Positions 15,874 to 35,134 of a DNA stretch of 35,263 bases are shown here, in pieces. The stretch is taken from positions 1 through 35,263 of the forward strand of contig CALDYW010000053.1 in assembly GCA_937944395.1 (NCBI GenBank), given 5' to 3'. The notes beneath the pieces were generated by a model. It did no database searches. It saw nothing but the letters and a program-made list of their open reading frames with translations, and was not told the origin of the DNA. The position numbers and the translations under genes were made by a program. This DNA comes from an uncultured Paracoccaceae bacterium. GTDB lineage: Bacteria > Pseudomonadota > Alphaproteobacteria > Rhodobacterales > Rhodobacteraceae. Numbering within the stretch: position 1 is the first letter of the stretch; the number at the start of each line of letters is the position of its first letter.

Positions 15874-15886
15874 GGGAGGGGCGGGG

Positions 15887-16780: not shown

Positions 16781-16792
16781 GATGGGCGTTTC

Positions 16793-17956
16793 ATGCGGCG
16801 ACTGAACTGGGGGCTGATCGGCGGCGGCGAGGGCAGCCAGATCGGCCCGGCGCACCGGCTGGGGGCGGCGGTGGACGGGCTCTATGCCTTCGTGGCGGGT
16901 GCGCTCGACCATCGCCCCGAGGTCGGGCGCGCCTTCGGCCGCCGGCTCGGGCTGGCGCCCGACCGCGCCTACGGCGACTGGCGCGAGATGCTGGCGGCCG
17001 AGCGCGACCGGCCCGACCGGGTGGACCTGGTCACCGTGGCGACACCCAATGCCACCCACTACCCGATCGCACGCGCCTTCCTCGAGGCCGGCTTCGACGT
17101 GCTCTGCGAGAAGCCGATGACGACGACGGTCGAGGAGGCCGAGGATCTGGTGCGCCTGGCGCGCGCGACCGGGCGGATCTGCGCGGTCAATTACGGCTAC
17201 ACGGGCTATGCGCTGGTCCGGCACATGCGCGCGATGGTGGCGCGCGGCGACCTCGGCCGCATTCGTCTGGTGGTGGCCGAGTTCGCCCACGGGCACCATG
17301 CCGCCGGCGACGACGACCGCAATCCCCGCGTGCGCTGGCGCTACGACCCGGCCGAGGCCGGCGTCTCGGCGGTATTCGCCGATGCCGGGATCCATGCGCT
17401 GCACCTCGCCGTCTTCGTCACCGGACAGGAGGTCACCCGGCTTGCGGCCGATCCGGTCTCCTGCGTGCCCTCGCGCCGGCTCGAGGACGACGCGATGATC
17501 AACTTCCGCATGGACGGGGGCGCCGTCGGCCGGCTCTGGACCTCGGCGGTGGCGATCGGGCGGATGCACGGGCTCACGCTGCAGGTGTTCGGCGAAAGGG
17601 GCGGGCTGCGCTGGGCGCAGGAGCAGCCGAACCAGCTCTACTGGATGCCGCTCGGGGGGCGGCTCGAGGTGATCGAGCGGGGCGAACCGGGCCTGTCGCC
17701 CGAGGCCGAGCGCGCCTCGCGCGTGACCGTCGGCCACGCCGAGGGCATGCCGCTGGCCTTCGCGAACATCTACCGCGACATCGCCGAGGCGATCCGGGCG
17801 CGGGCCGAGGGGCGCGCGCCCGATCCTTCGGTCGATCTCTACCCGCGGGCCGAGGATGGCCTGCGCTCGGTCGCGGCCGTCCATGCGATGGCCGCATCGG
17901 GCCGGGGCGGGGGCTGCTGGGTGGATGCCCGGCCGCCGATGTTCCGAACCGGCTGA
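16793..17956 (+). CDS. Gfo/Idh/MocA family oxidoreductase (second copy, divergent)
   Basis: WGLIGGGEGSQIGPAHR, VATPNATHYPIARAFLEAGFDVLCEKPMTTT. Confidence 0.9.
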   Translation: MRRLNWGLIGGGEGSQIGPAHRLGAAVDGLYAFVAGALDHRPEVGRAFGRRLGLAPDRAYGDWREMLAAERDRPDRVDLVTVATPNATHYPIARAFLEAGFDVLCEKPMTTTVEEAEDLVRLARATGRICAVNYGYTGYALVRHMRAMVARGDLGRIRLVVAEFAHGHHAAGDDDRNPRVRWRYDPAEAGVSAVFADAGIHALHLAVFVTGQEVTRLAADPVSCVPSRRLEDDAMINFRMDGGAVGRLWTSAVAIGRMHGLTLQVFGERGGLRWAQEQPNQLYWMPLGGRLEVIERGEPGLSPEAERASRVTVGHAEGMPLAFANIYRDIAEAIRARAEGRAPDPSVDLYPRAEDGLRSVAAVHAMAASGRGGGCWVDARPPMFRTG

Positions 17957-18022
17957 TCGCGGGGCGGCGCGCGTCCGGAAGGGGTCGCGGCGCGGGCGTC
18001 GGGCGGGCGGGACGATGCAGGT

Positions 18023-18044
18023 CGGCAACCGGAGCGGCAACCGG
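18023..18044. repeat. tandem CGGCAACCGG direct repeat upstream of the lacI-type gene
   Basis: CGGCAACCGG at 18023-18032 and 18035-18044, 12-bp period. Confidence 0.5.
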
Positions 18045-18097
18045 CAGACCGTCGCGGGCGACCCGCGCCCGGCGGGTGCCGGCGAGGGGGCCGGGTC

Positions 18098-19189
18098 GTG
18101 ACCCGCAGGCCTTCCGGACCGCCGGACCCCGGCGCGGCGCAACCCGGCGCGGCCGGGGCCCGGCGCGGCACGCAACCGCGCCCGGCCGGCGCCCGGGTGA
18201 CGCTGCGCGAGGTGGCCCAGCGCGCGGGCGTCTCGCGTTCGGCGGTGTCGCGGACCTTCACCGAGGGGGCGCCGATCTCGGAGGAAACCCGCCGGAAGGT
18301 GCTGCAGGCGGCGCATGACCTCGGCTACAGCCCGAACCTGCTGGCCAGCAGCCTGACCACCGGCCGCACCCGGCTGATCGGGCTGGTCGCCGACAATTTC
18401 ACCAATCCCGCCTTCCTCGGCGTCATCGACCGCTTCACCCGCGCGCTCGATGCCCGCGGCTTCCGGCCGCTGCTGGTGAACCTTGCCGGACAGACCGATC
18501 CGGCGGCGTCGGTGCAGCTGCTCGCCCGTTACTCGGTCGAGGGGGTGATCCTCGCCTCCTCCACCCTTCCGCAGAGCTTCGCGCAGGCCTTCCGGCAGGC
18601 GGGGCTCCCGGTTGTCCATGCCTTCGGCCGCACCGCCGGCGACGCGGTCGCCCATGTGGTCGGCGTGGACAACGTCCGCGCCGGCGAGATCGCCGCAGCC
18701 GCGCTGATCGGCCGCGGCTACCGGCGGCTCGGGTTCCTCGGCGGGCCGGAACCGGCCACCTCGACCGAGGACCGGCTGGCTGGGTTCCGGCGCGCGGCGC
18801 TGGCGGTCGCGGGCGTCGGCATCGAGGCCGCCTTCGCCTCGGCCTACAGCCACGAGGCCGGGCGGAAGGCGATGGCCGCTCTGATCGCGCGGGGCGGACT
18901 TGCGCAGGCCTATTTCTGCGGCGACGACATGGTGGCGATCGGCGCGATGGATGCGCTGGCCGAGGCCGGGCTCGGCGTGCCCGGGGATGTCGGGCTCATC
19001 GGGATGAACGATGTGGCGATGGCCGGCTGGCGCAGCATCGGCCTCAGCACGATCCGCCAGCCCTTCGACGAGATCATTTGCGCCGCGATCGACCTGGTGC
19101 TGGCGCTCATCGCCGACCCGGGCCTTGCGCCCGAGGTCCGCATCCTGCCCTGCACGCTTGTCGAGCGGCGCACGCTCGGCCGCGTCTGA
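18098..19189 (+). CDS. LacI family transcriptional regulator (start could be GTG 18197)
   Basis: VTLREVAQRAGVSRSAVSRTFTEGAPISEETRRKVLQAAHDLGYSPNLLASSL HTH/hinge, periplasmic-binding-like sensor domain. Confidence 0.93.
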   Translation: MTRRPSGPPDPGAAQPGAAGARRGTQPRPAGARVTLREVAQRAGVSRSAVSRTFTEGAPISEETRRKVLQAAHDLGYSPNLLASSLTTGRTRLIGLVADNFTNPAFLGVIDRFTRALDARGFRPLLVNLAGQTDPAASVQLLARYSVEGVILASSTLPQSFAQAFRQAGLPVVHAFGRTAGDAVAHVVGVDNVRAGEIAAAALIGRGYRRLGFLGGPEPATSTEDRLAGFRRAALAVAGVGIEAAFASAYSHEAGRKAMAALIARGGLAQAYFCGDDMVAIGAMDALAEAGLGVPGDVGLIGMNDVAMAGWRSIGLSTIRQPFDEIICAAIDLVLALIADPGLAPEVRILPCTLVERRTLGRV

Positions 19190-19198
19190 GCCGCCGGC

Positions 19199-19230
19199 GG
19201 CGCCCGGGGGTCTTGCCGCGCCCGGGCGCC
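19199..19230. terminator. candidate bidirectional terminator between lacI-type and phyH-type genes
   Basis: Perfect 10-bp inverted repeat GGCGCCCGGG ... CCCGGGCGCC with 12-nt loop, between convergent stops. Confidence 0.55.
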
Positions 19231-19276
19231 CCGGGGGCGCGGCGGCGGCGGGGCCCGCGCCGCGGACACCGGCCGG

Positions 19277-20464
19277 TCAGTGCGACCGCTTGCGCGCCGC
19301 CTTCGCGTCGATCTCGCGGTCGAAGCGCGCGGCGTCCCAGCCTTCGGCCAGCGCCCGGCGCATCACGTCCTGCTGGCTGGGCGGGGCCATGCCGCCGAGC
19401 GGCGAGTCGAGGTCGAGGTTCGCCGGGAACGGATAGCCCTCGCCCGAGGCCGCGATCACCGCCTCGACCTCGGGCCCGCTCAGCGTTTCGGCGGCGACCC
19501 GACGCGCCAGCACCGGATAGACCGCCTTGGCGACCCGGGCCCGGTCGACGATCTCGATCGACCGCCCGAAGCCCGAGCCGATCTGCATGAGGTTCGCGAA
19601 GCGGCGGACATGGGCGGTGCGGTTGTGCCCGGCGGCATGGAAGGTGGCGGGGTTGAAGAACAGAAGGTCGCCCTTCTCCAGCGGTATCTGGACATGCGCC
19701 TCCTCGAAGAAGGCGCGGAACTCGGGCCGCAGCACGGCAAGATAGCCCGGAAGGAAGCTCTGCGAATAGGGCAGCAGCTTCGTCGGCCCCGACTCGACCG
19801 GCATGTCGCCGTGCGCAACCGCCCCCTGCAGCGTCAGCGCCGCCGAAAGCCGGTGCTGGACGGCGGGGTAGGCGGTCAGCGTCGCGGCGTCGGTGAAGCC
19901 GAGGTGATAGTCGCGATGCGCGGTCTGGGCCGCCCCGCCCGGGTGGACGACGTTGACCTGGCAGGTGATCTGATAGGCCGGGCCGAGCCAGGACCGGGCG
20001 GCCAGCATCACCGCGGGGTTGGCGTTGTAGCGCAGGAAGAGGTCGGGATCCCTCGCGCTTAGCTTCTCGTGGGCGTTCCACAGCCGGCTGTTCGCGCCGG
20101 CCGCGGCGAAATGGTCGCCCCGGCCGGTGCCCGCGCGCGCCTCCTCGGCGATGATCGCCCCGAGCGCCTCCGTCACCGCGTCGATCAGCGAAAGATCCCC
20201 GTAGCCCGAACGGATGACGATGATTCCCGGCCCGTCGAGAAAGGCGCGGTTCCATTCGGCCATCAGCGCCCGGGCCGCGGCCGGGTCTCCCGCCGCCCGC
20301 CGTGCCGCGGCGCCGTCATATTGCGGAACGTTTCCGACGATCGCGGCGGCAAGCGGGTAGTCCGCCGCCGCCGTGGTCTGCGCGACATGGCTGCGGAAGG
20401 CCCCGAGATCGCAGTCGTCCTCGCCGAGCCAGACGGTCGGGTGCGCGGGACTTCTGTTCGGCAT
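19277..20464 (-). CDS. phytanoyl-CoA dioxygenase family protein (Fe(II)/2OG oxygenase fold)
   Basis: 395 aa; HRDYHLGF (HxD), ESGPTKLLPYSQSFLPGY, LLFFNPATFHAAGHNRTAHVRRFANL. Confidence 0.8.
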   Translation of the reverse strand: MPNRSPAHPTVWLGEDDCDLGAFRSHVAQTTAAADYPLAAAIVGNVPQYDGAAARRAAGDPAAARALMAEWNRAFLDGPGIIVIRSGYGDLSLIDAVTEALGAIIAEEARAGTGRGDHFAAAGANSRLWNAHEKLSARDPDLFLRYNANPAVMLAARSWLGPAYQITCQVNVVHPGGAAQTAHRDYHLGFTDAATLTAYPAVQHRLSAALTLQGAVAHGDMPVESGPTKLLPYSQSFLPGYLAVLRPEFRAFFEEAHVQIPLEKGDLLFFNPATFHAAGHNRTAHVRRFANLMQIGSGFGRSIEIVDRARVAKAVYPVLARRVAAETLSGPEVEAVIAASGEGYPFPANLDLDSPLGGMAPPSQQDVMRRALAEGWDAARFDREIDAKAARKRSH

Positions 20465-21416: not shown

Positions 21417-23315
21417 TTGGCACGAGGCGGGCCTCAGGTCGCGACAGGGTCCGGTCCGGCCGCCGCCCTGCGCGGCGGCGCGACCGCCGCTGTCGTCGCT
21501 CTGGGCACGCTGATGCTCTGGGCCGTGCTCCCGGCCGGTTTCGAGGGTCCGCTGATCCTGATGCTGGTCAGCATGGTCGCGGTCGTCGGGATCGGTATCT
21601 ACAGCGGCAACAGCGGCATCGTGAGCTTCGGGCATACCGCCCTCATGGCGCTCGGGGCCTATGCCTCGGCGATGATGACGATCGCGCCGGACGACAAGGC
21701 GCGGCTGCTGCCGGCGCTTCCCGATGCGGTGATCGCGCTGCATCTGCCGCCGGTTGCGGCGATCCTCGGGGCCTGCGCGGTCGTCGGGGTGGTGGCGCTG
21801 CCCGTGGCCCTGCTGATCGGGCGGCTCGAGGGCTCGTCGGCCTCGATCGCCACGCTCGGGCTTCTGCTCATCGTCAACGGCGTGCTGGTCGGCGCGCGCG
21901 ACTATACCCGCGGCAGTCAGGCGCTGTTCGGCCTGCCCATCGCCGTGACCGTGCCGGTGGCGGCGGCCTTCGTGGTGCTTGCGATCCTCGCCGCGCGGGC
22001 GTTCCGAGACTCGCGCATGGGGCTCGCGCTCAGGGCCGCGCGCGAGAACGCCGCCGCGGCCGCCGCCGTCGGGGCCGACGTGGTCCGCGCCCGGCAGGCG
22101 GCCTTCCTGCTCTCGGCCGTCATCGCCGCACTGGCCGGCGCGCTCTACGGCCATTTCATCGGCGTGCTCACCCCCCGGGCGTTCTATTTCGACCTGACCT
22201 TCGCGCTGCTCGCGATCCTGATCGTCGGCGGCATGACGACGATCGCGGGCGCGGCGCTCGGGGCGGTCCTGGTCTCGGTGCTGGTCGAGGTGCTGCGCCG
22301 CCTGGCCGACGGGGGCACCTTCGGTCCGCTGACGCTGCCGCCGGTTTACGGCCTGACCACGATCGGGCTGAGCCTCGCGATCCTCGCGGTGCTCTACCGC
22401 CGGCAGGGCGGGCTTCTGCCCTATGTCGAGCCCGACGAGGTGCTGCGCCCGCCCGCGCGCCCTGCCGTGCCGCCGCCCGCGCCGGCGCGGATCGAGGCCG
22501 GCTCGGGCGAGCTTCGTGCCGAGCGGCTCACCCGCCGCTTCGACGGAGTGATCGCGGTGTCCGAGGCGTCGCTGGTGCTGCGCCCCGGCGAGATCCTCGG
22601 TCTGATCGGGCCGAACGGGGCCGGCAAGTCCACGCTGCTGTCGATGATCGCGGGCTCGGTCCCGCCGACCTCGGGCCGCGTGCGGATCGACGGTGCCGAT
22701 GCAACCGGCCTGCCGCCGCACCGGATCGCGCGGCGCGGCGTGCAGCGGACCTTCCAGAACATCCGGCTGTTCGGCAACCTCAGCGTGCTCGACAACGTCC
22801 GGGTGGCCGCCGATGGCGGGCCCTGGAGCCGGGCCGAGGCGACGGCGCGGGCCTGGGCGCTGCTGGACCGGTTCGACCTGACGGCGCTTGCGGCGCGCCC
22901 CGCGGGCACGCTGGCCTACGGGCCGCAGCGGCGGGTCGAGATCGCGCGGGCGGTGGCGCGGGCGCCGCGCTACCTTCTGCTCGACGAGCCCGCGGCGGGC
23001 ATGAACGCGGCCGAATCCGATGCGCTGCTCGACCTGCTCGAGGGGCTGCGCCGCGACGACGGCATCGGCCTTCTGGTGATCGACCACGACCTGCGGCTGA
23101 TCCTCAGGCTCTGCGACCGGGTGGCGGTGCTCGGCAAGGGGCAGGTGATCGCCGAAGGACCGCCCGAGGCGGTCAGCCGGGATCCGCTGGTGATCGAGGC
23201 CTATCTCGGGCGGCGTCACGCCGGCGACGGACGAGGGCCGGCCCGGTCGGCCGCCACCTCCGGGGCACCGGGGCAGAAGACGACGGACCAGCACGAAAGG
23301 AGAAGGGATCCATGA
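21417..23315 (+). CDS. branched-chain amino acid-type ABC transporter, permease (LivM)-ATPase (LivG) fusion
   Basis: 632 aa: N-terminal LivM-like membrane domain (SFGHTALMALGAYASA), then Walker A GPNGAGKST, signature-like LAYGPQRRVEIARAVA and LLLDEPAAGMN. TTG start. Confidence 0.93.
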   Translation: MARGGPQVATGSGPAAALRGGATAAVVALGTLMLWAVLPAGFEGPLILMLVSMVAVVGIGIYSGNSGIVSFGHTALMALGAYASAMMTIAPDDKARLLPALPDAVIALHLPPVAAILGACAVVGVVALPVALLIGRLEGSSASIATLGLLLIVNGVLVGARDYTRGSQALFGLPIAVTVPVAAAFVVLAILAARAFRDSRMGLALRAARENAAAAAAVGADVVRARQAAFLLSAVIAALAGALYGHFIGVLTPRAFYFDLTFALLAILIVGGMTTIAGAALGAVLVSVLVEVLRRLADGGTFGPLTLPPVYGLTTIGLSLAILAVLYRRQGGLLPYVEPDEVLRPPARPAVPPPAPARIEAGSGELRAERLTRRFDGVIAVSEASLVLRPGEILGLIGPNGAGKSTLLSMIAGSVPPTSGRVRIDGADATGLPPHRIARRGVQRTFQNIRLFGNLSVLDNVRVAADGGPWSRAEATARAWALLDRFDLTALAARPAGTLAYGPQRRVEIARAVARAPRYLLLDEPAAGMNAAESDALLDLLEGLRRDDGIGLLVIDHDLRLILRLCDRVAVLGKGQVIAEGPPEAVSRDPLVIEAYLGRRHAGDGRGPARSAATSGAPGQKTTDQHERRRDP

Positions 23316-24481
23316 CGACGGCACTTCGGACGACGACGACGACCACGGCCGTGGCACTCGCCCTCGCGGCGGGGGCAGCCCAGGCGCAGGAGACGGTGAC
23401 GGTCGGCTTTGCCGCGGGCCTCACCGGCTATCTGGCCTTCTACGACGGCATGGTGATGCAGGGCGCCGAGATGGCGGTGGACGAGATCAACGCCGCCGGC
23501 GGGGTGCTCGACGGGCGGTACACCCTGGCCCTGTCGGTCAAGGACATGCGGTCGGAGACCCCGGCGGCGGTGATCGCCGCGCGCGATCTGGTCGCCGAAG
23601 GGGTGCGCGCGCTGCTGGTGCCCTGCGACGTCGATCCGGCGATCGCGGCGGGGCAGATCGGCCAGCAGGCCGGGATCCCGATGATCGCCGCCTGCGCCTC
23701 GACCCCGACGCTGCCGGGCCTGGTCGGCGACTACCTGTTCAACCTCAAGACCGCCGACAACCTGCAGGCGGCGGTGCTGGCGGAATACGCCCGCGCCCAG
23801 GGCTACGAGACCGCCTACATCCTGCTGTCGCCCGACACGCCCTATACCGACCTGTTGCCGCGCTACTTCGCGCAGGCCTTCGAGAGCCTCGGCGGCAGGG
23901 TGGCGGCGATCGACACCTACGCCTTCGACCAGCAGGACTTCAGCGTGGAAGCCACGCGCATCGCGGCGCTCGACCCGCAGCCCGACGTGATCATGACCGC
24001 CGCCTACGAGCCGCATTTTCCCGCCTTCATCCAGCAGCTGCGCAATGCCGGTGTCACCGCTCCGGTGCTGGGCAGCGACGGAATCGATTCGCCCACCACG
24101 CTCGGGATCGGGCCGGCGGCGGACGGGGTGGTGTTCTCGATGGCCGGCTTCCCGGTCGAGGGCGGAACGCTCGCCGCCTTCTACGACGCCTACGAGGCGC
24201 GCTACGGCGAGGATCTGCCCTTCGCCTTCAGCGCCACCGGCTACGAGGCGGTCAAGCTGCTCGCCGCGGCGATCGAGACGGCGGGCTCGATCGAGGGGGC
24301 CGCGATCCGCGACGCGCTCGATGCGGTCGTGGACTTTCCCGGCGTGACCGGCACGACGATCACCTATGCCGGGCAGAACCGCGTGGCGCTGCGCGACGTG
24401 ACCCTGGTCGAGGTGCGCGACGGCGAGCAGCACTTCGTGCTGCAGGCGCGGCCGGCACCCGAAACGACCCCGAAGCCCTGA
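23312..24481 (+). CDS. ABC transporter substrate-binding protein (LivK/Peripla_BP_6 type)
   Basis: Signal peptide ending AQAQE, VGFAAGLTGYLAFYDGMVMQGAEMAVDEINAAGGV; ATGA overlap with upstream gene. Confidence 0.92.
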   Translation: MTTALRTTTTTTAVALALAAGAAQAQETVTVGFAAGLTGYLAFYDGMVMQGAEMAVDEINAAGGVLDGRYTLALSVKDMRSETPAAVIAARDLVAEGVRALLVPCDVDPAIAAGQIGQQAGIPMIAACASTPTLPGLVGDYLFNLKTADNLQAAVLAEYARAQGYETAYILLSPDTPYTDLLPRYFAQAFESLGGRVAAIDTYAFDQQDFSVEATRIAALDPQPDVIMTAAYEPHFPAFIQQLRNAGVTAPVLGSDGIDSPTTLGIGPAADGVVFSMAGFPVEGGTLAAFYDAYEARYGEDLPFAFSATGYEAVKLLAAAIETAGSIEGAAIRDALDAVVDFPGVTGTTITYAGQNRVALRDVTLVEVRDGEQHFVLQARPAPETTPKP

Positions 24482-24498: not shown

Positions 24499-25212
24499 AT
24501 GCTCGAAGTGACGGGACTGGAGGTTGCCTACGGCGCGATCCGGGCCGTCAGGGGCATCGACCTTCGCGTGGGGCAGGGCGAGATCGTCGCCCTGCTCGGA
24601 CCCAACGGGGCGGGAAAGAGCTCGACGCTCATGGCGATCATGGGCGTCGTGCCGCCGCGGGCCGGGCGCATCCGCCTGGAGGGGCGCGATGTCTCGGGGC
24701 TGGCCCCCGAAGCCCTGGTCCGCGCGGGCATGGCGCTGGTGCCCGAGGGGCGGCGCATCTTCGCGCCGCTGACGGTGACCGAGAACCTGGTCGTCGCCGC
24801 GCCGCCCGGTCGCCGAAGGTCGGAACTTGCGGCGGACCTCGAAGAGATGCACGCGCTCTTCCCGGTGCTCGCCGAGCGGCGGACCCAGCAGGCGGGCACC
24901 CTCTCGGGCGGCGAGCAGCAGCAGCTTGCCATCGCGCGCTGCCTGATGGGCCGGCCGCGGATGGTGCTTCTCGACGAGCCCTCGCTGGGGCTCGCGCCGC
25001 AGATCGTGGACCAGATCTTCGACCTGATCGCCGGTCTGCGCGACCGCGGCCTGACGATCCTGCTGGTCGAGCAGAACGTGGACCTGTCGCTCGAGATCGC
25101 CGACCGCGGCTATGTGCTGGTCGGCGGCGAGATGGTGCTGGACGGCCCGGCCGCGGCGCTTGCCGCCTCGGAAGGGGTCGAGCGCGCCTTCCTCGGCCTG
25201 TCGGGGGCGTGA
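24499..25212 (+). CDS. livF: branched-chain amino acid-type ABC transporter ATP-binding protein (LivF type)
   Basis: GPNGAGKSST, LSGGEQQQLAIARCLM, LLDEPSLGLAP, VEQNVDLSLEIADRGYVL. Confidence 0.93.
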   Translation: MLEVTGLEVAYGAIRAVRGIDLRVGQGEIVALLGPNGAGKSSTLMAIMGVVPPRAGRIRLEGRDVSGLAPEALVRAGMALVPEGRRIFAPLTVTENLVVAAPPGRRRSELAADLEEMHALFPVLAERRTQQAGTLSGGEQQQLAIARCLMGRPRMVLLDEPSLGLAPQIVDQIFDLIAGLRDRGLTILLVEQNVDLSLEIADRGYVLVGGEMVLDGPAAALAASEGVERAFLGLSGA

Positions 25213-25219
25213 GGCCGCC

Positions 25220-26104
25220 ATGGATCTTCTGTTCCAGAACCTCGTCAATGCGCTGAGCCTCGGCGGCATCTACGCGCTCCTCGCGCTGGGGCTTGCGCTC
25301 GTGTTCAGCATCATGGGGCTGATCAATTTCGCCCACGGCGAACTGATGACGATCACCGCCTACGGGCTGATCCTCGGCGCCGGGCTGGGCCTGCCCTTCG
25401 GGGCCGCCGTGATCCTGGGTGTGGCGCTGGCCGGTCTCGCCGCGATGGCGATGGAGCGCATCGCCTTCCGCCCCGTCCGCGGCGCCTCGGCGGCCACGCT
25501 CCTGCTGACGAGCTTTGCGGTCAGCGCGGTGCTGCAGGTGCTGTTCCAGAACCTGATCGCTGCCCGCCCTTTGCCGGTCGCGGTGCCGCGGGCGCTGGCC
25601 GGCACGCTCGACCTTGGCGGGTTGCGCGTGGGCGTGCTGCCGCTCGCGACGATCCTCGGCACGGGGATCCTGCTGGCCGCCCTGGCGCTGGTGCTGCGCC
25701 GCACCCGGGTCGGAATTGCCATGCGGGCCGCGGCCATCGACTTCCAGATGACCCGGCTGGTCGGCATCCGCGCCGATGCGGTGATCGCCGCGGCCTTCGG
25801 CCTGTCCGGACTCCTCGCCGGCATCGCGGCGGTGTTCTGGGTGGCGCAGCGGGGGTCGGTCGATCCGATGATGGGCTTCCTGCCGGTCCTGAAGGCCTTC
25901 ATCGCGGTGATCGTCGGCGGCCTCGGCAGCCTCTCCGGGGCGGTGGTGGGGGCGTTCCTGCTGGCCTTCATCGAGGTCGGCCTGCGGGCGCTCCTGCCGC
26001 CCGAACTGCTGCCCTACCGCGAGGCGCTGGCGCTGGCGCTGATCATCCTCGTGCTCCTGGTGCGGCCCCAGGGGCTGTTCGGGCGCAGGGAGACGGTGCG
26101 ATGA
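25220..26104 (+). CDS. livH: branched-chain amino acid-type ABC transporter permease (LivH type)
   Basis: MDLLFQNLVNALSLGGIYALLALGLALVFSIMGLINFAHGELMTI; GGLGSLSGAVVGAFLL. Confidence 0.93.
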   Translation: MDLLFQNLVNALSLGGIYALLALGLALVFSIMGLINFAHGELMTITAYGLILGAGLGLPFGAAVILGVALAGLAAMAMERIAFRPVRGASAATLLLTSFAVSAVLQVLFQNLIAARPLPVAVPRALAGTLDLGGLRVGVLPLATILGTGILLAALALVLRRTRVGIAMRAAAIDFQMTRLVGIRADAVIAAAFGLSGLLAGIAAVFWVAQRGSVDPMMGFLPVLKAFIAVIVGGLGSLSGAVVGAFLLAFIEVGLRALLPPELLPYREALALALIILVLLVRPQGLFGRRETVR

Positions 26105-26913
26105 GCCTGCTCGGCCCCTCGGATCCGCCGCCGGTCGAAGTCGCGAACGCGGCCGGCGCGGCGCCGCTGCTGATCGTCTGCGACCACGCGGCCAACCGCG
26201 TGCCCGCGGCTCTCGGGGATCTGGGCTTGCCGGCCGCGGCCCGTGCGGCGCACATCGCCTGGGATCCCGGGGCGGCGATGATCGCCCGCCACCTCAGCGC
26301 CCGGTTCGATGCCCCCGCGATCCTGTCGGGCTATTCCCGGCTGGTCGTCGATTGCAACCGCTATCCGCACGATCCCGCCAGCATGCCCGAGGTCAGCGAC
26401 GGCACGCCGGTTCCGGGCAACCGCGACCTCGAGCCGGCGGCGCGCGAGGCGCGGCTTGCCGCGCTGTTCCGACCCTATCACGCCGCCATCGCGGCGCGGC
26501 TGGACCGCTTCGCCGCGGCGCAGGTGGTGCCGGTGCTGCTGTCGGTGCACACGATGACCCCGCGCCTCGGCGGGCGCGACCGGCCCTGGCCGGTGGCGCT
26601 GTCCTGGCGGCTCGACGGCCGGCTGGCGCCGGCGCTGATCGCGGCGCTCCGCGCCGGCGGGATCGCCGCCGGCGACAACGAGCCCTACGGCCTCGATCCG
26701 GGCGAGGACTACACCGTGCCCGAACACGCCATGCGCCGGGGTCTTGCCCATGTGCAGGTCGAGTTCCGCCAGGATCTCGTGTCCGGCGCCGGCGGCGCCC
26801 GCGTCTGGGCCGACCGTTTCGCCGACGCGCTGGCGCCGCTGCTCGGCGATCCGCGGCTCCGCCGGCCCGAGCACCACTGGCCCGGAACCGGCGCTCAGCC
26901 GATCCCGGGATAG
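26101..26913 (+). CDS. N-formylglutamate amidohydrolase family protein
   Basis: VCDHAANRVPAALGDLGL, HIAWDPGA, YSRLVVDCNRYPHDPASMPEVSDGTPVPGN, LSVHTMTPRL, VEFRQDL; ATGA overlap with livH-type gene. Confidence 0.88.
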   Translation: MSLLGPSDPPPVEVANAAGAAPLLIVCDHAANRVPAALGDLGLPAAARAAHIAWDPGAAMIARHLSARFDAPAILSGYSRLVVDCNRYPHDPASMPEVSDGTPVPGNRDLEPAAREARLAALFRPYHAAIAARLDRFAAAQVVPVLLSVHTMTPRLGGRDRPWPVALSWRLDGRLAPALIAALRAGGIAAGDNEPYGLDPGEDYTVPEHAMRRGLAHVQVEFRQDLVSGAGGARVWADRFADALAPLLGDPRLRRPEHHWPGTGAQPIPG

Positions 26914-28037
26914 ATCCGCCGCGCGTTGCCCTCGGCGAACAGCCGCACGATCTCGTCCGCGTCGGCGGCCGAGCAGAGCCCGTCGGCCAGCCAGCGGTCG
27001 ATCACCCGCCCGAGCGCGCGGCGGTAGAGGAAGGCGCCGAGGTAGTAGAGCTCGGCCAGCCCGAAGGCGTCCGACGAGAACAGGTACTTGGTGAATTTCC
27101 CCATCTCCAGCGCCTCGGCGAGGATGCCGTCGTAGTTGCCCGCCCCGTAGTTCAGCACCACCCCGGTGTCGTAGTAGACGTTCCGGAACACCTCGGACAT
27201 CCACTGCGCCTCGCGGATGAAGGGGTAGTTGTGCAGGAGCGTGACCGGCACCTCCCAGCCTTCCAGTGCGGCAATGAAGGGGGTGAAACGGGTGGGGTCG
27301 CAGGCGTGCATCAGGATGTCCGGGTCGCCGATCCCGACATGCACCTGCAGGGGCCAGCGCCGCTCGCGGCAGAGGTCGGCGCCGACCCAGAGGATGTGGC
27401 GCAGCAGCACCGGATCGGCGATGCGCCAGCGCCCGGCGGCCTCGGCCGCGCGGAACCAGCGGCCCGCCGCCTCGGCCACCTCGGCCTGCGCCGGCGCGGT
27501 CTGGTCGAAGGCGAAGGAGATGCGGTAGGCCACGATGGTCTTGAGCCCGACCGCCGCGGCCGAGACCTCGCGCAGGCGCGCTGCGAAGGCATCGGCGAAG
27601 GCCGCGGCCGCGACGCCCGAGCGCGCCACCTCCTCGGCCACCGCCTCGATCCGGACGACCTCGGAGGCCGGGCAGCCGGCGATCGCCGCCATCGCGGGCA
27701 CGCCGAGGATGATCTCGGCCCGGTGGCCGGTGTCGATGATCAGATGCCCGAAGCCGCCCGCCCGCATCAGGCGGCGGTTGACCTCCGCCGCGCCCAGTTC
27801 GCGCCGTCGCGCCATGTAGGCCGGGCCGGGCGCCCCCGGCTCGAGGTCGAGGAGCGGCGCGCAGAAGCGCCGGATCGCCAGCCCGAGCGGCTTCTGGAAC
27901 TCGTGCGTGCCCGCAGGCGGCGGGCGGTAGCTTTCCGAGAACAGCGCCTGGAAGGCGGTGTCGTCGAGGTCGCGGTCGCTGATCCCGTGGCAGTGATGGT
28001 CGATCAGCGGGATCGTCGCGATCAGCTCGGCGAGCAT
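26895..28037 (-). CDS. amidohydrolase family protein, similar in type to the FluG N-terminal domain
   Basis: IPLIDHHCHG (HxH), LQVHVGIGDPD, LHNYPF, YYDTGVVLNYG, YLFSSDAFGLAELYYLG, EGNARRIY. 3' end overlaps the convergent formylglutamate hydrolase gene by 19 nt. Confidence 0.8.
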   Translation of the reverse strand: MLAELIATIPLIDHHCHGISDRDLDDTAFQALFSESYRPPPAGTHEFQKPLGLAIRRFCAPLLDLEPGAPGPAYMARRRELGAAEVNRRLMRAGGFGHLIIDTGHRAEIILGVPAMAAIAGCPASEVVRIEAVAEEVARSGVAAAAFADAFAARLREVSAAAVGLKTIVAYRISFAFDQTAPAQAEVAEAAGRWFRAAEAAGRWRIADPVLLRHILWVGADLCRERRWPLQVHVGIGDPDILMHACDPTRFTPFIAALEGWEVPVTLLHNYPFIREAQWMSEVFRNVYYDTGVVLNYGAGNYDGILAEALEMGKFTKYLFSSDAFGLAELYYLGAFLYRRALGRVIDRWLADGLCSAADADEIVRLFAEGNARRIYPGIG

Positions 28038-28038
28038 G

Positions 28039-29358
28039 TCAGTAGGCCTCGCGGTAGCGCGCGCAGACGGTGTCATCGTCGAGCCCTTCCATCATCCCGA
28101 TCTCCTTGCGCTTCACGGCGATCCAGGACTGGCGCATCACCGGCGGCAGGAAGCCCGCAACGGTCGCGTCGGCCTCCATCAGGGCGATCGCCTCGGCCAG
28201 CGACCCCGGCAGCGGCCGGATTCCCAGGCGCTCGCGTTCCGCCCCGGTCAGATCGGCCGGGTCGCGGTCGAGCGCGGGCGGCAGCGGCAGGCCCGCGCGC
28301 ACCCCCTCGAGCCCGGCGCGGATCAGCGCGCCGAGGGCGATGTACGGGTTCGCGGTGCCGTCGGGCACCCGCAGCTCGATGTTGTAGCCGGCGCGCCGGC
28401 GTTCGGGATCGGCATGCGGCGAAGGGCAGATGCGCAGCGCCGCCTCGCGGTTCTGCACCCCGAAGGCGGCATAGCCGCAGGACCAGTGATGCGGACCGAG
28501 GCGGAAGTAGGATACCGGCGAGGGCGCGAAGAGCGCGCAGAGGCCGGGCAGGTGGCGCAGCACGCCGGCGCAGAAGGCGGCGGCGACCGCCGAGGCGCCG
28601 GCCGGCGCCGCGGCGTCGTAGGCGGCATTGCGCCCGGCGTCGTCCAGCAGGCTGAAGTGCACATGCGCCCCGGCCCCCACCGCCCCCGGCGCGGGTTTCG
28701 GGGTGAACGAGGCGCACAGGCCCGCCCGCCGCGCCGCCTCGCGGATCACCTCGCGGGTCAGCACGGCGCGGTCTGCGGCCATGAGCCCGGCCGCCGGGGC
28801 GGTGGAGACCTCGTACTGGCCGCGGCCGTATTCGGGCTCGACCGTTTCGGGTTCGACGCCGGCTTCGGTCAGCGCGCGGGCGATCATGCCGGCGACGCCG
28901 GCAGCCTCGCGCATCGCGGCGAGCGAGAAGGGCGTCTCGCGCGGTGCGCCCGGCCCGGTCAGCAGGAACTCGTGCTCGAAGGCGGCGGCAAAGCCGAGCC
29001 CGGTTTCCGCCCGGAGCCGGTCCAGCGCGTCGCGGAGGAAGCGGCGTCCGCAGCACTCCCAGCCCTGCCCGTCGGCGGTGTTGGACTCGCACAGCACGAT
29101 GTGGAACGGCGGCACGCCGGGCCAGAGGTCGAGCCGCACCTCGGTTTCGGGCGCCGGGGTCTGGCGGACCTCCAGCATCGGGCCCCACGGATTGTCGGCG
29201 ATGTCGTCGAAGGGGGTCAACGCCTGGCCGGCGACCGCCCAGCCCAGGCCGCGCTCGCGCCGGGCGGCATACTGGTGGGCGGGGACCGCGCGGCAGCGCG
29301 TCACGCCCACGTAATCGGACCAGCACAGGTGGATGATCTCGTCCGCCGCCGTCGTCAT
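28039..29358 (-). CDS. glutamine synthetase family protein (GS-like ligase, FluG-C / gamma-glutamyl-ligase type)
   Basis: EHEFLL, EPEYGRGQYEVSTAP, GAGAHVHFSLLD, NREAALRICPS, NIELRVPDGTANPYIALGALIRAGLEG. Confidence 0.88.
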   Translation of the reverse strand: MTTAADEIIHLCWSDYVGVTRCRAVPAHQYAARRERGLGWAVAGQALTPFDDIADNPWGPMLEVRQTPAPETEVRLDLWPGVPPFHIVLCESNTADGQGWECCGRRFLRDALDRLRAETGLGFAAAFEHEFLLTGPGAPRETPFSLAAMREAAGVAGMIARALTEAGVEPETVEPEYGRGQYEVSTAPAAGLMAADRAVLTREVIREAARRAGLCASFTPKPAPGAVGAGAHVHFSLLDDAGRNAAYDAAAPAGASAVAAAFCAGVLRHLPGLCALFAPSPVSYFRLGPHHWSCGYAAFGVQNREAALRICPSPHADPERRRAGYNIELRVPDGTANPYIALGALIRAGLEGVRAGLPLPPALDRDPADLTGAERERLGIRPLPGSLAEAIALMEADATVAGFLPPVMRQSWIAVKRKEIGMMEGLDDDTVCARYREAY

Positions 29359-29362
29359 GCCC

Positions 29363-30268
29363 TCATGACCCTTCCCCCTTGCCTCCGCAGGCCGCCGGGC
29401 GCCCGCCGGTCCATTCGTAGCCCGCGCGCAGTTCCTCGACCTTGCGCATGCGGGCAAGCCCCGCCTCGCCCAGCCGCGCGGCGACCCCCGCGATCAGCGC
29501 CTCGCAGAGCGCCGTCATCGGCACCAGCGAATCGAAGGCCGAGGGCGAGCGCACCTCGGCGGTCAGCACGATCCGCGCGCAATCGGCGATCGGCGACAGC
29601 CAGGGATCGGTGCACAGGATGATCGTCGCGCCGCGCCGGCGGGCCATCTCGGCGATGCGCACGGTGCGCGCCTCGTATCGGCGCACGTCGAACAGCACGA
29701 CGACGCTGCGGCGCGTGATGTCCACGATCCGGTCCTCGCGCGGCTGCAGGTCGCCGCGCAGGCGGCCGACCCGGTCCCGCAGCAGGAACAGGTGCAGGAA
29801 CAGCATGTCGGCGATCAGCCGCGTGAACCGCCCGCCGTCGGTCACCACGGGCCGCGCCGGGTCGGCCAGAAGTTCGACCGCGGCCTCGAAATCCGCGCCG
29901 GACAGGCGCGCGAAGCTGTCGTCGAGCGCGGCGGCGAAGGTGGTGCGGCAGTGGTCCAGAAGCGCGCTGTCCGAGGGCGGGCGGCCGCTGTCGTAGAGCG
30001 TCAGCGGCGAGGAATGGCGGGCCTCCAGCTCCTGGCGGATCGCGCGCTGGAACTCGGGGTAGCTCGTGAAGCCGAGCTTGCCGACCAGCCGCAGCACGGT
30101 CGGCCCCGAGACTCCGGCCCGCCCGGCGAGGTTCGCAACCGTATCGAGCCCGGCGAGCATTCCGGTCCGGGTGAGAAGCCGAGCAACCCGTGCCTCGGCC
30201 GCGGCCAGCCCCACCGTCGCCTGGCGAAGCCGGTCGGTCAGCGTGGCGTCGAGGGTGGACTGCGGCAC
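29363..30268 (-). CDS. RpiR/MurR family transcriptional regulator (GTG start)
   Basis: N-terminal HTH (TVANLAGRAGVSGPTVLRLVGKLGFTSYPEFQRAIRQEL), SIS-like domain. Confidence 0.9.
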   Translation of the reverse strand: MPQSTLDATLTDRLRQATVGLAAAEARVARLLTRTGMLAGLDTVANLAGRAGVSGPTVLRLVGKLGFTSYPEFQRAIRQELEARHSSPLTLYDSGRPPSDSALLDHCRTTFAAALDDSFARLSGADFEAAVELLADPARPVVTDGGRFTRLIADMLFLHLFLLRDRVGRLRGDLQPREDRIVDITRRSVVVLFDVRRYEARTVRIAEMARRRGATIILCTDPWLSPIADCARIVLTAEVRSPSAFDSLVPMTALCEALIAGVAARLGEAGLARMRKVEELRAGYEWTGGRPAACGGKGEGS

Positions 30269-30296
30269 GGGCGCTCCGGAACGGCGGACGGAACGG

Positions 30297-30324
30297 ACGA
30301 TACGGATTGATCCCGGACTGTCAA
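30297..30324 (-). promoter_or_regulatory. candidate sigma70-type promoter for rpiR-GS-amidohydrolase operon
   Basis: Minus strand TTGACA-N16-TATCGT about 29 nt before the GTG start; GGAG ribosome-binding site. Confidence 0.55.
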
Positions 30325-30405
30325 ATTGTTATCGCCTGTTTCCATCCGGGTTCTGCCGGTGCGCCGCGCGCCCCGGCGGCCCGGCCTGACCGGCGAGGCC
30401 CAGCC

Positions 30406-32478
30406 ATGACCCGCGATCCCCGCCACGACATCCTGTTCGAGCCGGTGCGGATCGGTCCGAGGGTGGCGCGCAACCGCTTCTACCAGGTTCCGCACTGCAA
30501 CGGGCTCGGCCATCGCGCACCGCGGGCGCTGGCCGCCATGCGCGCGGCGAAGGCCGAGGGCGGCTGGGCCGTGGTCTGCACCGAGGAGGTCGAGGTCCAC
30601 CCCGCCGCCGAGGTCTCGCCCAGCATCGAGGGCCGGATCTGGAGCGATGCCGACATCCCCGCGCACGAAGGCATGGTGCAGGCGGTGCAGGCGCATGGCG
30701 CGCTGGCCGGGATCGAGCTGGTCTTTCCCACCCCGCGCGCCAACCACGATTCGCGGCTGGTGCCGATGGGCGTGCGGGCCGGCCCGGTGGGCTCGGGCGG
30801 GATCGACCCCTGGCAGGCGCGCGCGATGGATGCGGACGACCTGCGCGATGTCCGCCGCTGGCATCGCGCCGCGGTCGGCCGGGCGATCCGGGCGGGCTAT
30901 GACCTGGTCTATGTCTATGCCGGGCACGGGCTGTCGCTGCTGCAGCAGTTCCTGTCGCGCGCCACCAACGACCGCAGCGACGCCTACGGCGGCTCGCTTG
31001 CGAACCGGTCGCGGCTGTTGCGCGAGATCCTGTCCGAGACGCTCGAGGAGGCGGCGGGCCGGGTTGCCGTGGCTGTCCGGATCGCGATGGCCGAGCCCGA
31101 CATCGACGACGGGCTGACGCGCGAGGAGATCGCCGAGGTCGTCGGCATGGTGGCCGAGGCGCCCGACCTCTGGGACTTCTGCATGGGCAGCTGGGAACGC
31201 GACTCGCCCACCGCCCGGCTGGCGCCCGAGGGCTTCCAGGAGGCGGCGATCCGCGGGCTGAAGGCCCTGACCACAAAACCGGTGGTGGGGGTCGGCCGCT
31301 TCACCTCGCCCGACACCATGGCCGCGCAGGTGCGCGGCGGGCTGATGGATTTCGTCGGCGCAGCGCGGCCGTCGATCGCCGACCCGTTCCTGCCGCGCAA
31401 GATCGAGGCGGGCGAGGCCGACCGCATCCGCGAATGCATCGGCTGCAACATCTGCGTCGCCAGCGACAACCTCGCCGCCCCGATCCGCTGCACCCAGAAC
31501 CCGACGATGGGCGAGGAATGGCGCCGCCGCTGGCACCCCGAGCGGATCGCGCCCCGGGGCAGCGCTGCGCGGGTGCTGGTGGTGGGCGGCGGGCCGGCGG
31601 GGCTCGAGGCGGCGCGCGCGCTCGGCGCGCGGGGGTACGAGGTGGCGCTGGCCGAGGCCGGGGCGCGGCCGGGCGGGCGGGCGGTGCGCGAGGCGCGGCT
31701 GCCGGGCCTGTCCACCTGGGCCCGCGTCGCCGACTGGCGGCTGGGCGAGATCGCCCGGATGGGCCATGTCGCGGTGTTTCCGGGCAGCCCGATGACCGCC
31801 GCCGACGTGCTGGACTTCGGGGCGGCGCATGTGGTCGTGGCCACCGGCGCCCGCTGGCGCCGCGACGGACGCGGGCGGCGCCACCCCCGGGGCATCGCCG
31901 TCGCCGAAGGCGCGAGCGTGCTGACGCCCGACGACCTGCTCGACGGTGCGGCGCCCGGGGGCAGCGTGCTGATCTACGACGACGAGCACTACGTCATGGG
32001 CAGCGCGCTGGCCGAGCTCCTGGCCGGGCAGGGGGCGGCGGTGACGCTCGTCACCCCCGCCCCTCTCGTCGCGGCCTGGACCGTGCACACCCTGGAGCAG
32101 GCCGCGGTCGAGCGGCGGCTGGTCGGCCTCGGCGTGCGGCTGCGGACGCGCACGGCTCTCGTGCGGATCGACCCCGGTGCGGCGATCCTGCGCGACGAGG
32201 TGACCGGTGCGGCCGACAGCCTGCCCGCCGATGCCGTGGTCGCGGTGACGGCCCGCGCGCCCTGCGACGGACTGGCGGCCGAGCTGCAGGCGCGGCGGGG
32301 GGAATGGGCGGATCACGGAGTGGCCGGCGTCACCGTGATCGGCGACGCGCTGGCGCCCGGGACGATCGCGCACGCGGTCTTCGCCGGCCACCTCTACGCC
32401 CGCAACCTCGACACAGGCGCCGGCGCCGACGACCTGCCCTTCCGCCGCGAACTGCCCTTCCCCGGTGAAGCGGGATGA
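30406..32478 (+). CDS. FMN/Fe-S NADH:flavin oxidoreductase of the trimethylamine/dimethylamine dehydrogenase (DgcA-like) family
   Basis: RDPRHDILFEPVRIGPRVARNRFYQVPHCNGLG; CIGCNICVASDNLAAPIRCTQNPTMGEEWRRRWHPE Fe-S motif; VVGGGPAGLEAARAL C-terminal dinucleotide domain. Confidence 0.9.
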   Translation: MTRDPRHDILFEPVRIGPRVARNRFYQVPHCNGLGHRAPRALAAMRAAKAEGGWAVVCTEEVEVHPAAEVSPSIEGRIWSDADIPAHEGMVQAVQAHGALAGIELVFPTPRANHDSRLVPMGVRAGPVGSGGIDPWQARAMDADDLRDVRRWHRAAVGRAIRAGYDLVYVYAGHGLSLLQQFLSRATNDRSDAYGGSLANRSRLLREILSETLEEAAGRVAVAVRIAMAEPDIDDGLTREEIAEVVGMVAEAPDLWDFCMGSWERDSPTARLAPEGFQEAAIRGLKALTTKPVVGVGRFTSPDTMAAQVRGGLMDFVGAARPSIADPFLPRKIEAGEADRIRECIGCNICVASDNLAAPIRCTQNPTMGEEWRRRWHPERIAPRGSAARVLVVGGGPAGLEAARALGARGYEVALAEAGARPGGRAVREARLPGLSTWARVADWRLGEIARMGHVAVFPGSPMTAADVLDFGAAHVVVATGARWRRDGRGRRHPRGIAVAEGASVLTPDDLLDGAAPGGSVLIYDDEHYVMGSALAELLAGQGAAVTLVTPAPLVAAWTVHTLEQAAVERRLVGLGVRLRTRTALVRIDPGAAILRDEVTGAADSLPADAVVAVTARAPCDGLAAELQARRGEWADHGVAGVTVIGDALAPGTIAHAVFAGHLYARNLDTGAGADDLPFRRELPFPGEAG

Positions 32479-32578: not shown

Positions 32579-33772
32579 TCAGCGCAGGATCGGCGGCGGG
32601 TCGGAAAAGTCCAGACCGGGGAACACAGTCCCCTCGATCGCCGCGCGGTCCAGCCCGAACAGGCCGGCGAGCGCCGCGCCCGCATGGGCGCGCAGGTCCG
32701 CGGTCGGCATCAGGTCGCGCGACTGGTAGAGGTCGGCCTCGTCGAGCCCCGGCCAGCGCCCGATCACGCGCCCCCCGCGCAACGCCCCCCCGGCCATCAG
32801 CAGCGCGCCGCCGGTGCCGTGGTCGGTTCCGCCCGATCCGTTCTCGCGCACGGTGCGGCCGAATTCGGTGAGCGCCATCACCAGCGTGCTGTCCCAGGCG
32901 CGCCCCAGGCCGCTGCGCAGGTCGGTCAGAACCTGCGCCAGCGCCTCGAGCCGGGGCGGCAGCACGGCGGCCTGGCGGCGGTGGGTGTCCCAGCCGCCCA
33001 TCGAGAAGGCGGCGATGCGGGCGTCGCCCGTCAACCGTTCGGCCACGAATGTGCCGAGGCTGCGTTCGCCCCCGCCGCCGCCGGCCGCCCGTGCCTCGGC
33101 CTCGCGCACGAGTTCTGCCGCCCCGGCATAGGCGCCGGCGAACAGGGGATCCTCGGCATAGACCGTCTCGAGCAGAAGCTGCGCCTGCGCCGACAGCGCG
33201 TTGCGCGACACCGGCAGCCAGTGGCCGGAGGGGTTCGGCCCCTCGAGGATCAGCAACGGTTCGGTGCCGATCGCGACCGCGGTTCGGGTGTCGGCGCCCG
33301 GCAGGAAGCCCACCGCCCGGTTCAGCCAGCCGTGGCGGTCGGGGGTGAGTTCGCCGGTCTCCGCGCCCGAGCCGTTCTCCAGCAGATCCTGCCCCTGGAA
33401 GTGGCTGCGGCGGTTGCGATAGGGGGTGGCGACGGCATGGGCAAAGCCGAGTTCGCCGGCCTCCCAGAGCGGCATCAGACCGCCGAGCGCCGGATGCAGC
33501 GCATAGAACCCGTCGAGGTCGATCCCCTCGGGGCCCGCGCCGGGTGCCAGCAGACCCGGCCGGTGGCCGCGCAGCGCCCGATCGCCCATCGGGCGCAACA
33601 GGTCGAGCCCGTCCACCGCGCCGCGCAGCAGGATCACCACCAGCCGGTTCTCGCCCGGAACGGCGGCGAAGCTCACGCGCGTCAAGAGCGGGCTCGCCGC
33701 CGCCGAACAGCCGATCAGGAAGGCCCGGCGGCCGAGGCGCGGTCCGGCAAGGCGTTGGATCGGCGCGGTCAT
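32579..33772 (-). CDS. DUF1501 domain-containing protein with twin-arginine signal
   Basis: GRRAFLIGCSAAASPLLTRVSFAA signal; LVVILLRGAVDGLDLL, SMGGWDTHRRQ, MALTEFGRTVRENGSGGTDHGTGGALLMAGG. Confidence 0.9.
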   Translation of the reverse strand: MTAPIQRLAGPRLGRRAFLIGCSAAASPLLTRVSFAAVPGENRLVVILLRGAVDGLDLLRPMGDRALRGHRPGLLAPGAGPEGIDLDGFYALHPALGGLMPLWEAGELGFAHAVATPYRNRRSHFQGQDLLENGSGAETGELTPDRHGWLNRAVGFLPGADTRTAVAIGTEPLLILEGPNPSGHWLPVSRNALSAQAQLLLETVYAEDPLFAGAYAGAAELVREAEARAAGGGGGERSLGTFVAERLTGDARIAAFSMGGWDTHRRQAAVLPPRLEALAQVLTDLRSGLGRAWDSTLVMALTEFGRTVRENGSGGTDHGTGGALLMAGGALRGGRVIGRWPGLDEADLYQSRDLMPTADLRAHAGAALAGLFGLDRAAIEGTVFPGLDFSDPPPILR

Positions 33773-33784
33773 CGGCAGGTCCTC

Positions 33785-35134
33785 CTAGCGGCGCATGAAG
33801 GCGGGCGAGGCGAGCAGCACCGCCACCCCCTCCCAGCGCTGTTCCGCCGCCCCGACGGCGAAGCGCAGGCCCGCGTCGGCGAGCGGTCCGAGCACGGCAT
33901 CGGTCAGCATGCCGGGCTCGATGCGTCCGGCGAAGGCGCGCGCGAGGTCGGCCGCCCAGTCGATCCGCTGGGCGAGGAGCGGCGGCGAGATCCAGGCGGT
34001 CGCGACGTCGGGCCAGCCGTTGGGGCCGTTCGCGCGGAACGGCACCTGGCCCATCCGCGGCAGGATGCGGCCGAACCGCATGGTGCCGCGCAGCGCGTCC
34101 TTGTCGTCGCGCTCGGCCCCGGTCAGTCCCAGGGCGCGGCAGGCCGCGACGACGTATTCGGCCGGCATCCGGACCTTGCCGAGTTCGGGCCGGGCGGCCT
34201 CGGGCCGGGTCAGCAGCGCCCGGTAGGTCGCCATCAGGTCGCCCTCGCTCGACAGGAAGGCCTGCGCCACCGCCGCGACGGCGGCCTCGGGTGGCTCGTC
34301 GGCCAGGAAATGCCGGCACAGTCCGAAGGCGACGCTTCGTGCGGTCTCGGGCCGGGCGGCGAGATCGTCAAGGAAGCGTTCGATCTCGTCGAACCCTTCG
34401 CGTCCGCGACGGCCGTAGTCGCGCCCGAGGATCGTGAAGACGCCCGGCTCGGACTGCCGCGGATCGAAGGCGGTGCCCTCGGGGCCGACCACGAGCCCGG
34501 TGAGCAGCCGCGCCGCCCCGGTCACGTCGGCCTGGGTGTAGCCCGAGCCCATGGTGTGCAGTTCCATCAGCTCGCGGGCGAAGTTCTCGTTCAGACCGCG
34601 CCCGCGGCTGCGGCCGACCGGGGAATTGGGACCGACCGAGCTGGACTGGTCGAGATAGAGCAGCATGGCCGGATGCAGGGCGACCGCGCGCAGCAGGTCG
34701 GCGAAGCGGCCGGTCAGGCGCGGCCGGATCGCCTCCTCGTGGAACGGCTGCACCATGAGCTGCAGCGCGAGGCCACGCATCACCACGGTGAAGCGGTTGC
34801 CCCAGTAGCCGGCGAGCCGTTCGCGGAAGCCCTGTCGCGCGCCGACGAGCCGCGGGATCCAGAGCTCCTCGTCCTCGCGCGCGATCCGCCGCGACTCCTC
34901 GCGGGCGAGACGCGGGGTTTCGGGGTCGCGGCGGTAGGCGCGCTGCTCGGCGCGCCCGCGCTCGATCAGCACGAGGCGCTCGGCAAGTCCCGGGCGGCGG
35001 AAGGCGGGGTCGGGGTCGTCCGGGGCCTCGAGCGTGGCCAGCACCCGGTCGGGGTCGAAGCCCGCGGGGCGGGGAACGGGTTCGGGTCCGACGGGGCCCA
35101 GTCCGAAGCGGATCTCCTCGAGGATGCTCAGCAT
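33785..35134 (-). CDS. DUF1800 domain-containing protein
   Basis: RGLNENFARELMELHTMGSGYTQADVTGAARLLTG, FRANGPNGWPD; directly upstream of the DUF1501 gene. Confidence 0.9.
   Translation of the reverse strand: MLSILEEIRFGLGPVGPEPVPRPAGFDPDRVLATLEAPDDPDPAFRRPGLAERLVLIERGRAEQRAYRRDPETPRLAREESRRIAREDEELWIPRLVGARQGFRERLAGYWGNRFTVVMRGLALQLMVQPFHEEAIRPRLTGRFADLLRAVALHPAMLLYLDQSSSVGPNSPVGRSRGRGLNENFARELMELHTMGSGYTQADVTGAARLLTGLVVGPEGTAFDPRQSEPGVFTILGRDYGRRGREGFDEIERFLDDLAARPETARSVAFGLCRHFLADEPPEAAVAAVAQAFLSSEGDLMATYRALLTRPEAARPELGKVRMPAEYVVAACRALGLTGAERDDKDALRGTMRFGRILPRMGQVPFRANGPNGWPDVATAWISPPLLAQRIDWAADLARAFAGRIEPGMLTDAVLGPLADAGLRFAVGAAEQRWEGVAVLLASPAFMRR

Follow-up and report, generated by a model that had tools for sequence, protein, structure and literature searches.

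The question raised by this locus is whether two neighbouring genes, encoding a glutamine synthetase (GS)-like protein and an amidohydrolase, correspond to the two halves of the fungal protein FluG, and which pathway they might serve in a bacterium. FluG has a key part in triggering spore formation in fungi, and to our knowledge the reaction that it catalyses is not known. The DNA analysed, hereafter the window, is a stretch of 35,263 nucleotides from an uncultured Paracoccaceae bacterium (contig CALDYW010000053.1 of GCA_937944395.1). On its minus strand, a GS-like gamma-glutamyl ligase gene of the FluG C-half/PA5508/GlnA3 type (28039-29358; ATG 29356-29358, stop 28039-28041, 439 aa) is followed by a TIM-barrel amidohydrolase gene of the FluG N-half/2QPX/SCO6961 type (26895-28037; ATG 28035-28037, stop 26895-26897, 380 aa), with the single nucleotide 28038 between them. 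This confirms the layout reported in a preliminary description of the DNA, with two minus-strand open reading frames (ORFs) 1 nt apart and the GS gene first. An alternative in-frame ATG at 28076, upstream, would give the amidohydrolase gene a 38-nt overlap with the GS gene; the start at 28037 is more likely, because relatives align from its first residue. The pair probably belongs to a catabolic cassette, based on gamma-glutamylation, for an amine or an amino-acid derivative.

The GS-like protein matched Gln-synt_N_2/Gln-synt_C in Pfam (1.5e-75), and its closest solved structure was 4HPP (PA5508; E 6.5e-96). The catalytic residues examined in both proteins were those named in PMC6478659. In the GS-like protein, E128, E130, E176, E183, H232, H234, R286, W292, R304, R309 and E328 are all kept and invariant among 35 sequences, and the ATP, metal and glutamate residues are preserved. 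W292 lies at the position where GlnA carries the proton-abstracting Glu, and the acidic residue of the ammonium site is missing, with Ala41 at the position of V42 in 4HPP. Trp in place of Glu, together with a non-acidic ammonium site, is a trait of enzymes ligating amines rather than ammonia (PMC6478659), and the protein thus has the features of a FluG-type GS of the gamma-glutamyl ligase type. Three other identities were rejected. Canonical GlnA (type I) was excluded by a score of 178 against a cut-off of 429 bits (TIGR00653) and by a tree placing the protein outside GlnA with 100/99 support; PuuA, by 273 against 650 bits (NF045547) and a separate position in the tree; and type III/GlnT, by 161 against 470 bits (TIGR03105). 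Phylogeny and model cut-offs therefore agree that the protein falls inside neither canonical GlnA nor PuuA. It groups with PA5508 and other GS proteins that are linked to an amidohydrolase, whereas the E. coli GlnA and PuuA and those three paralogues from the same genome that the tree included are placed apart from it.

The amidohydrolase matched Amidohydro_2 alone in Pfam (1.5e-10), and its closest solved structure by sequence was 2QPX (E 3.5e-37). Its residues H15, H17, K166, Y171, H233, H269 and D323, which include the binuclear-metal and carbamylated-Lys ligands, were invariant among 43-44 sequences, giving the H/H/K/Y/H/H/D active site of a 2QPX-type, FluG-type amidohydrolase; the 2QPX chain numbering is off by one relative to PMC6478659, and the conserved residues lie one place on. 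A predicted model (predicted local distance difference test score, pLDDT, 95) gave 2QPX as the top fold match (E 3.6e-23), with uronate isomerases next at 1.1e-7. A uronate isomerase was therefore ruled out by the fold search, in which 2QPX was many orders of magnitude ahead, and by the Amidohydro_2-only Pfam match.

The structures 2QPX and 4HPP served as modelling templates for the N- and C-terminal halves of FluG, respectively (PMC6478659). With these as the best solved relatives and the catalytic residues kept, the two proteins belong to the families of the two halves of FluG, as had been proposed; likeness to FluG was judged through these shared templates only. The term "split FluG", used in the preliminary description, is misleading because adjacent separate genes are the usual bacterial arrangement. 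No fused GS-amidohydrolase ORF was found among 84 bacterial amidohydrolase loci, which rules out gene fission from FluG as the origin of the pair. With two neighbouring genes as the normal condition in bacteria, the fused form of fungi is probably the derived one.

To describe how widespread the pair is, the whole collection was scanned with only the amidohydrolase as query; this gave 80 loci, 68 of them with enough flanking sequence. A GS-like gene was located within 1 kb of the amidohydrolase in 57 of the 68, in several phyla, and because the loci had been collected by the amidohydrolase alone, this adjacency is not due to chance. The GS gene precedes the amidohydrolase gene on one strand in 32 of these pairs (median gap about 38 nt); the order is reversed in 8, and the genes lie on opposite strands in 17. 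Adjacency was conserved in loci of Pseudomonadota, Actinomycetota and Bacillota and on one Deinococcus plasmid. The distance matrices of the two proteins were correlated (Mantel r 0.79, a value reached by none of 999 permutations), a correlation to which shared species descent contributes and from which L068 and L078 depart, with a GS like that of the window beside a distant amidohydrolase. The amidohydrolase itself is sporadic, occurring in 3 of 298 genomes of the family and 11 of 387 of the class, and when plasmids were searched for the pair, the matches were few and mostly distant. The rarity of the pair in genomes would fit two unrelated genes lying side by side by chance, an explanation that is nevertheless extremely improbable, being already refuted by adjacency across phyla and by the permutation result. 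Given this conservation in different phyla and the correlated distances, the two genes are likely to share one pathway. The preliminary description had proposed a single two-step pathway; the shared pathway stands, but not its limitation to two steps, as a regulator, an importer, an FGase-family hydrolase and a flavoenzyme travel with the pair. The arrangement is also not new. In Streptomyces coelicolor, glnA3 (SCO6962) and SCO6961 have been described as likely co-transcribed and polyamine-induced, with SCO6961 as a proposed hydrolase (PMC5403932), and the authors of the FluG study also noted the clustering of the two genes in bacteria (PMC6478659). That paper credits the GS/amidohydrolase linkage to Strong et al. 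2003.

The genes around the pair form the rest of the cassette. A gene for an RpiR-family regulator (HTH_6 + SIS; 29363-30268, minus strand) lies 4 nt upstream of the GS gene and is the first gene of the minus-strand operon; given these 4 bases and the single base within the pair, the three genes probably form one operon. Upstream of it, in the gap between the RpiR gene and a divergent flavoenzyme gene, is a promoter-like site on the minus strand (TTGACA-16-TATCGT, 30297-30324), which is sigma-70-like with 10 of 12 matches by consensus only. No candidate RpiR operator beyond short imperfect palindromes was found within 30255-30410. Convergent to the amidohydrolase gene, a plus-strand operon encodes a Liv-type ATP-binding cassette (ABC) importer, identified by sequence matches and cassette relatives. 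It consists of a LivM-LivG fusion of permease and ATPase in one polypeptide (21417-23315, 632 aa; BPD_transp_2, ABC_tran and BCA_ABC_TP_C; cassette relatives match 0.7-1.0 of this length), a LivK-type periplasmic binding protein (23312-24481), a LivF-type ATPase (24499-25212) and a LivH-type permease (25217-26104). The last gene of the operon encodes an FGase-family (PF05013) amide hydrolase (26101-26913; Pfam 6.5e-45, with a match to 2ODF), the ATG of which overlaps the LivH stop by four bases.

This set of RpiR, GS, amidohydrolase, FGase and LivH/F/K/MG is shared with other alphaproteobacterial lineages. The whole or a large part of it recurs in loci L013, L016, L018, L021, L023, L025 and L026, and also in L033, L111, L112, L113 and L114. 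Among 87 loci, RpiR was near the pair in 20 and FGase near the amidohydrolase in 26; an M20 hydrolase was near it in 9 actinobacterial loci, and FGase and M20 never occurred together. FGase-family proteins are proposed gamma-glutamylglycine hydrolases in an ethanolamine route (PMC6529630, PMC10132767). A second amide hydrolase, FGase or M20, is thus often beside the amidohydrolase, and that the amidohydrolase reverses the ligase is a proposal only. Many cassette relatives also have a class-III pyridoxal phosphate (PLP) enzyme (L013 11227-12549, L016 1634-2950, L112 10687-12009 and others), which is absent from the window; the L016 enzyme is closest to the amino-acid-amide racemase 6GIO (E 7e-154). 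A highly conserved isochorismatase-family hydrolase, often directly after the amidohydrolase, accompanies the cassette in seven loci (L014 11198-11836, L015, L017, L036, L044, L112 and L114), among which it is 67-78% identical.

The flavoenzyme gene (30403-32478, plus strand), divergent from RpiR, encodes an amine dehydrogenase-type protein of the histamine/trimethylamine dehydrogenase (HADH/TMADH) family that is 56% identical to histamine dehydrogenase 3K30 (E 1.6e-234). The protein keeps the cofactor and catalytic residues Cys35, Tyr176, His179, Asp270 and Arg230 and the Fe-S cysteines, and shares with 3K30 and 6DE6 the fold family, the Cys-flavin mononucleotide linkage, the Tyr/His/Asp triad and the 4Fe-4S cysteines. 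It differs from them in the pocket, where Q65E, I74V, F77S, N115R, Y181L and G269R are found (3K30 numbering) and Glu79, Trp267 and Asp358 are kept; Gln65, Phe77 and Asn115 are common to 3K30 and 6DE6, and Y181L and G269R are counted against 3K30. The pocket thereby gains Glu62, Arg112 and Arg266. Because the residues of the histamine-binding pocket are changed, histamine is unlikely to be the substrate. In L114 a relative of the flavoenzyme is encoded within the cassette, with LivH on one side and FGase on the other; in L017 and L029 it adjoins the cassette, and in L069 it lies near the pair. Six other loci have a DAO-type enzyme instead, closest to sarcosine/N-methyltryptophan oxidases, and the two types never share a locus (5 and 6 loci, respectively, among the 87), as expected of interchangeable oxidising modules. 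The cassette-linked copies of the flavoenzyme are not one clade, which suggests that they were recruited repeatedly. An HADH-family gene was present in all 10 other amidohydrolase-bearing genomes of the class, compared with 56 of 386 overall (hypergeometric p 2e-9 by genome and 2e-7 by genus, values that are optimistic because some genomes share families). The control gene DUF1501 was present in 2 of the 10 and 81 of 386 overall, which is not beyond chance; a DUF1501-DUF1800 gene pair lies downstream of the flavoenzyme (32579-35134, minus strand). A third HADH-family copy in this genome (G000:C46:37-2094) has an in-frame TAG and is either a pseudogene or an assembly error.

From these genes we infer a class of substrate, an order of steps, the bond cleaved by each hydrolase and a mode of regulation. 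The Liv-type importer would take up an amine or an amino-acid-derived amide or amine, and the PA5508/GlnA3/FluG-type GS-like enzyme would use ATP to join the gamma-carboxyl group of glutamate to the amino group of the substrate. The flavoenzyme would then oxidise, by deamination or N-demethylation, either the substrate or its glutamylated form, and the 2QPX-type amidohydrolase and the FGase-family hydrolase may free glutamate and the processed product. RpiR would govern expression from the divergent promoter region. The ligation step is predicted from residues and relatives, and the later steps from gene content. Several observations weigh against such a cassette. No relatives of its aldehyde dehydrogenase (ALDH), class-III PLP enzyme or DAO were found in the window, so genes for some of the steps would have to lie elsewhere; by type, the importer is an amino-acid/amide rather than a polyamine importer; and the amidohydrolase has no assayed relative in the sources used. 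Co-inheritance is also not strict, since in L068 and L078 the GS is about 60% like that of the window and the amidohydrolase only 41-42%. L031, L035 and L038 have the amidohydrolase and FGase with GS absent.

Two substrate classes remain: diamines or polyamines, suggested by GlnA3, and amino-acid amides, lactams or N-methyl amino acids, suggested by the importer, the PLP enzyme of relatives and the DAO type. For the former, a Puu-like route would have the GS act as PuuA and the flavoenzyme as PuuB, which would oxidise a gamma-glutamyl diamine at its free amine; the part of PuuD, the gamma-glutamyl-gamma-aminobutyrate (gamma-Glu-GABA) hydrolase, would fall to the amidohydrolase or FGase. Polyamine induction of the homologous glnA3-SCO6961, with SCO6961 as the proposed hydrolase (PMC5403932), is consistent with this, as are the oxidation of agmatine, putrescine and 1,3-diaminopropane by histamine dehydrogenases (PMC10180351) and the fact that at L049 and L054 the pair has genes for an ALDH and a class-III PLP enzyme close by. 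We consider it rather doubtful, as the importer is Liv-type, the window has no ALDH match, the GS is far below the PuuA cut-off (273 against 650 bits), and the class-III PLP enzyme of relatives is closest to an amino-acid-amide racemase, not to a GABA transaminase. For the latter class, an amino-acid-like compound would be imported and N-demethylated by the flavoenzyme or DAO, and amide or N-carbamoyl bonds would be opened by the hydrolases. N-demethylases are known in the HADH/TMADH family, and the Liv-type importer, the similarity of the relatives' PLP gene to 6GIO, that of DAO to N-methyltryptophan/sarcosine oxidases and the isochorismatase-family hydrolase in seven loci all point the same way. 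However, the window itself lacks genes for the PLP enzyme, DAO and isochorismatase, and this route is a tentative suggestion.

Breakdown of histamine or an aromatic monoamine by the flavoenzyme, with the pair glutamylating the same amine, would agree with 3K30 as the best match of the flavoenzyme and with PA5508, the nearest solved relative of the GS, being described as an aromatic monoamine ligase (PMC6478659). It is improbable in view of the changed pocket (Q65E, F77S and N115R, also Y181L and G269R against 3K30), which weakens plain histamine catabolism; moreover, a plasmid homologue (L093) that keeps Gln65, Phe77 and Asn115 adjoins an aldehyde dehydrogenase without GS or amidohydrolase. 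Going beyond the gamma-glutamylation cassette that we favour, it is conceivable, although we would not expect it, that the whole set (RpiR, GS-like ligase, 2QPX-type amidohydrolase, FGase or M20, Liv-type importer with fused LivM-LivG, and an interchangeable HADH-family or DAO-type flavoenzyme) represents an undescribed gamma-glutamylation route with an amino-acid amide, a lactam or an N-methyl amine as its substrate. In such a route the glutamylated intermediate may be what the HADH-family enzyme acts on, with Glu62, Arg112 and Arg266 fitting the glutamyl group. The fit of the Arg residues is a suggestion only, because Arg112 and Arg266 are not common to the other cassette-linked copies. Solving this route would give the first substrate for the amidohydrolase half of FluG.

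Farther from the cassette, the window contains an apparent sugar/inositol-type catabolic region (12653-20464), with a KduI/IolB protein, two Gfo/Idh/MocA dehydrogenases, a xylose-isomerase-like TIM barrel, a LacI regulator and a PhyH-type dioxygenase (19277-20464, minus strand).

Compared with known systems, the window cassette resembles the ethanolamine glutamylation clusters (SCO1611-1615; Phaeobacter MED193_10021-10056) in its GS-like ligase and FGase-family hydrolase and, for the Phaeobacter cluster, in RpiR; those clusters differ in having alcohol and aldehyde dehydrogenases and, in Phaeobacter, a tripartite ATP-independent periplasmic (TRAP) importer. The same genome has, elsewhere, a cluster resembling them (L120 4481-9040, G000:C220), where FGase and a divergent RpiR accompany genes for an aldehyde dehydrogenase and a GS-family protein, which argues that the window cassette serves a substrate other than ethanolamine. 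An HADH-family paralogue lies about 14 kb from that cluster on the same contig (C220:20705-22753). PA5508/PauA7 (4HPP) is the closest solved relative of the GS and has the same active-site signature, and the window GS is in another, amidohydrolase-linked subclade. The S. coelicolor SCO6962-SCO6961 locus (PMC5403932) likewise has both genes on one strand, with an amidohydrolase-2 gene directly following a GS-like gene; its GlnA3 is a polyamine-ligating GS, and a Liv importer, FGase and flavoenzyme are not described with it. No description of the full cassette was found in the literature, in a search limited to open-licence papers. The pair itself is already known, and what is added here is the conserved cassette with its swappable oxidase. 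FluG of Aspergillus nidulans (PMC6478659) has the same two enzyme families, catalytic residue sets and nearest structures, in one polypeptide with the amidohydrolase N-terminal and with a developmental role, whereas the window has two ORFs, GS first, in a bacterial gene cassette. Bacterial loci that carry the halves of FluG as separate genes, in a cassette with genes for transport, regulation and a redox reaction, offer concrete hints at what the substrate is, as well as a tractable system for testing it.

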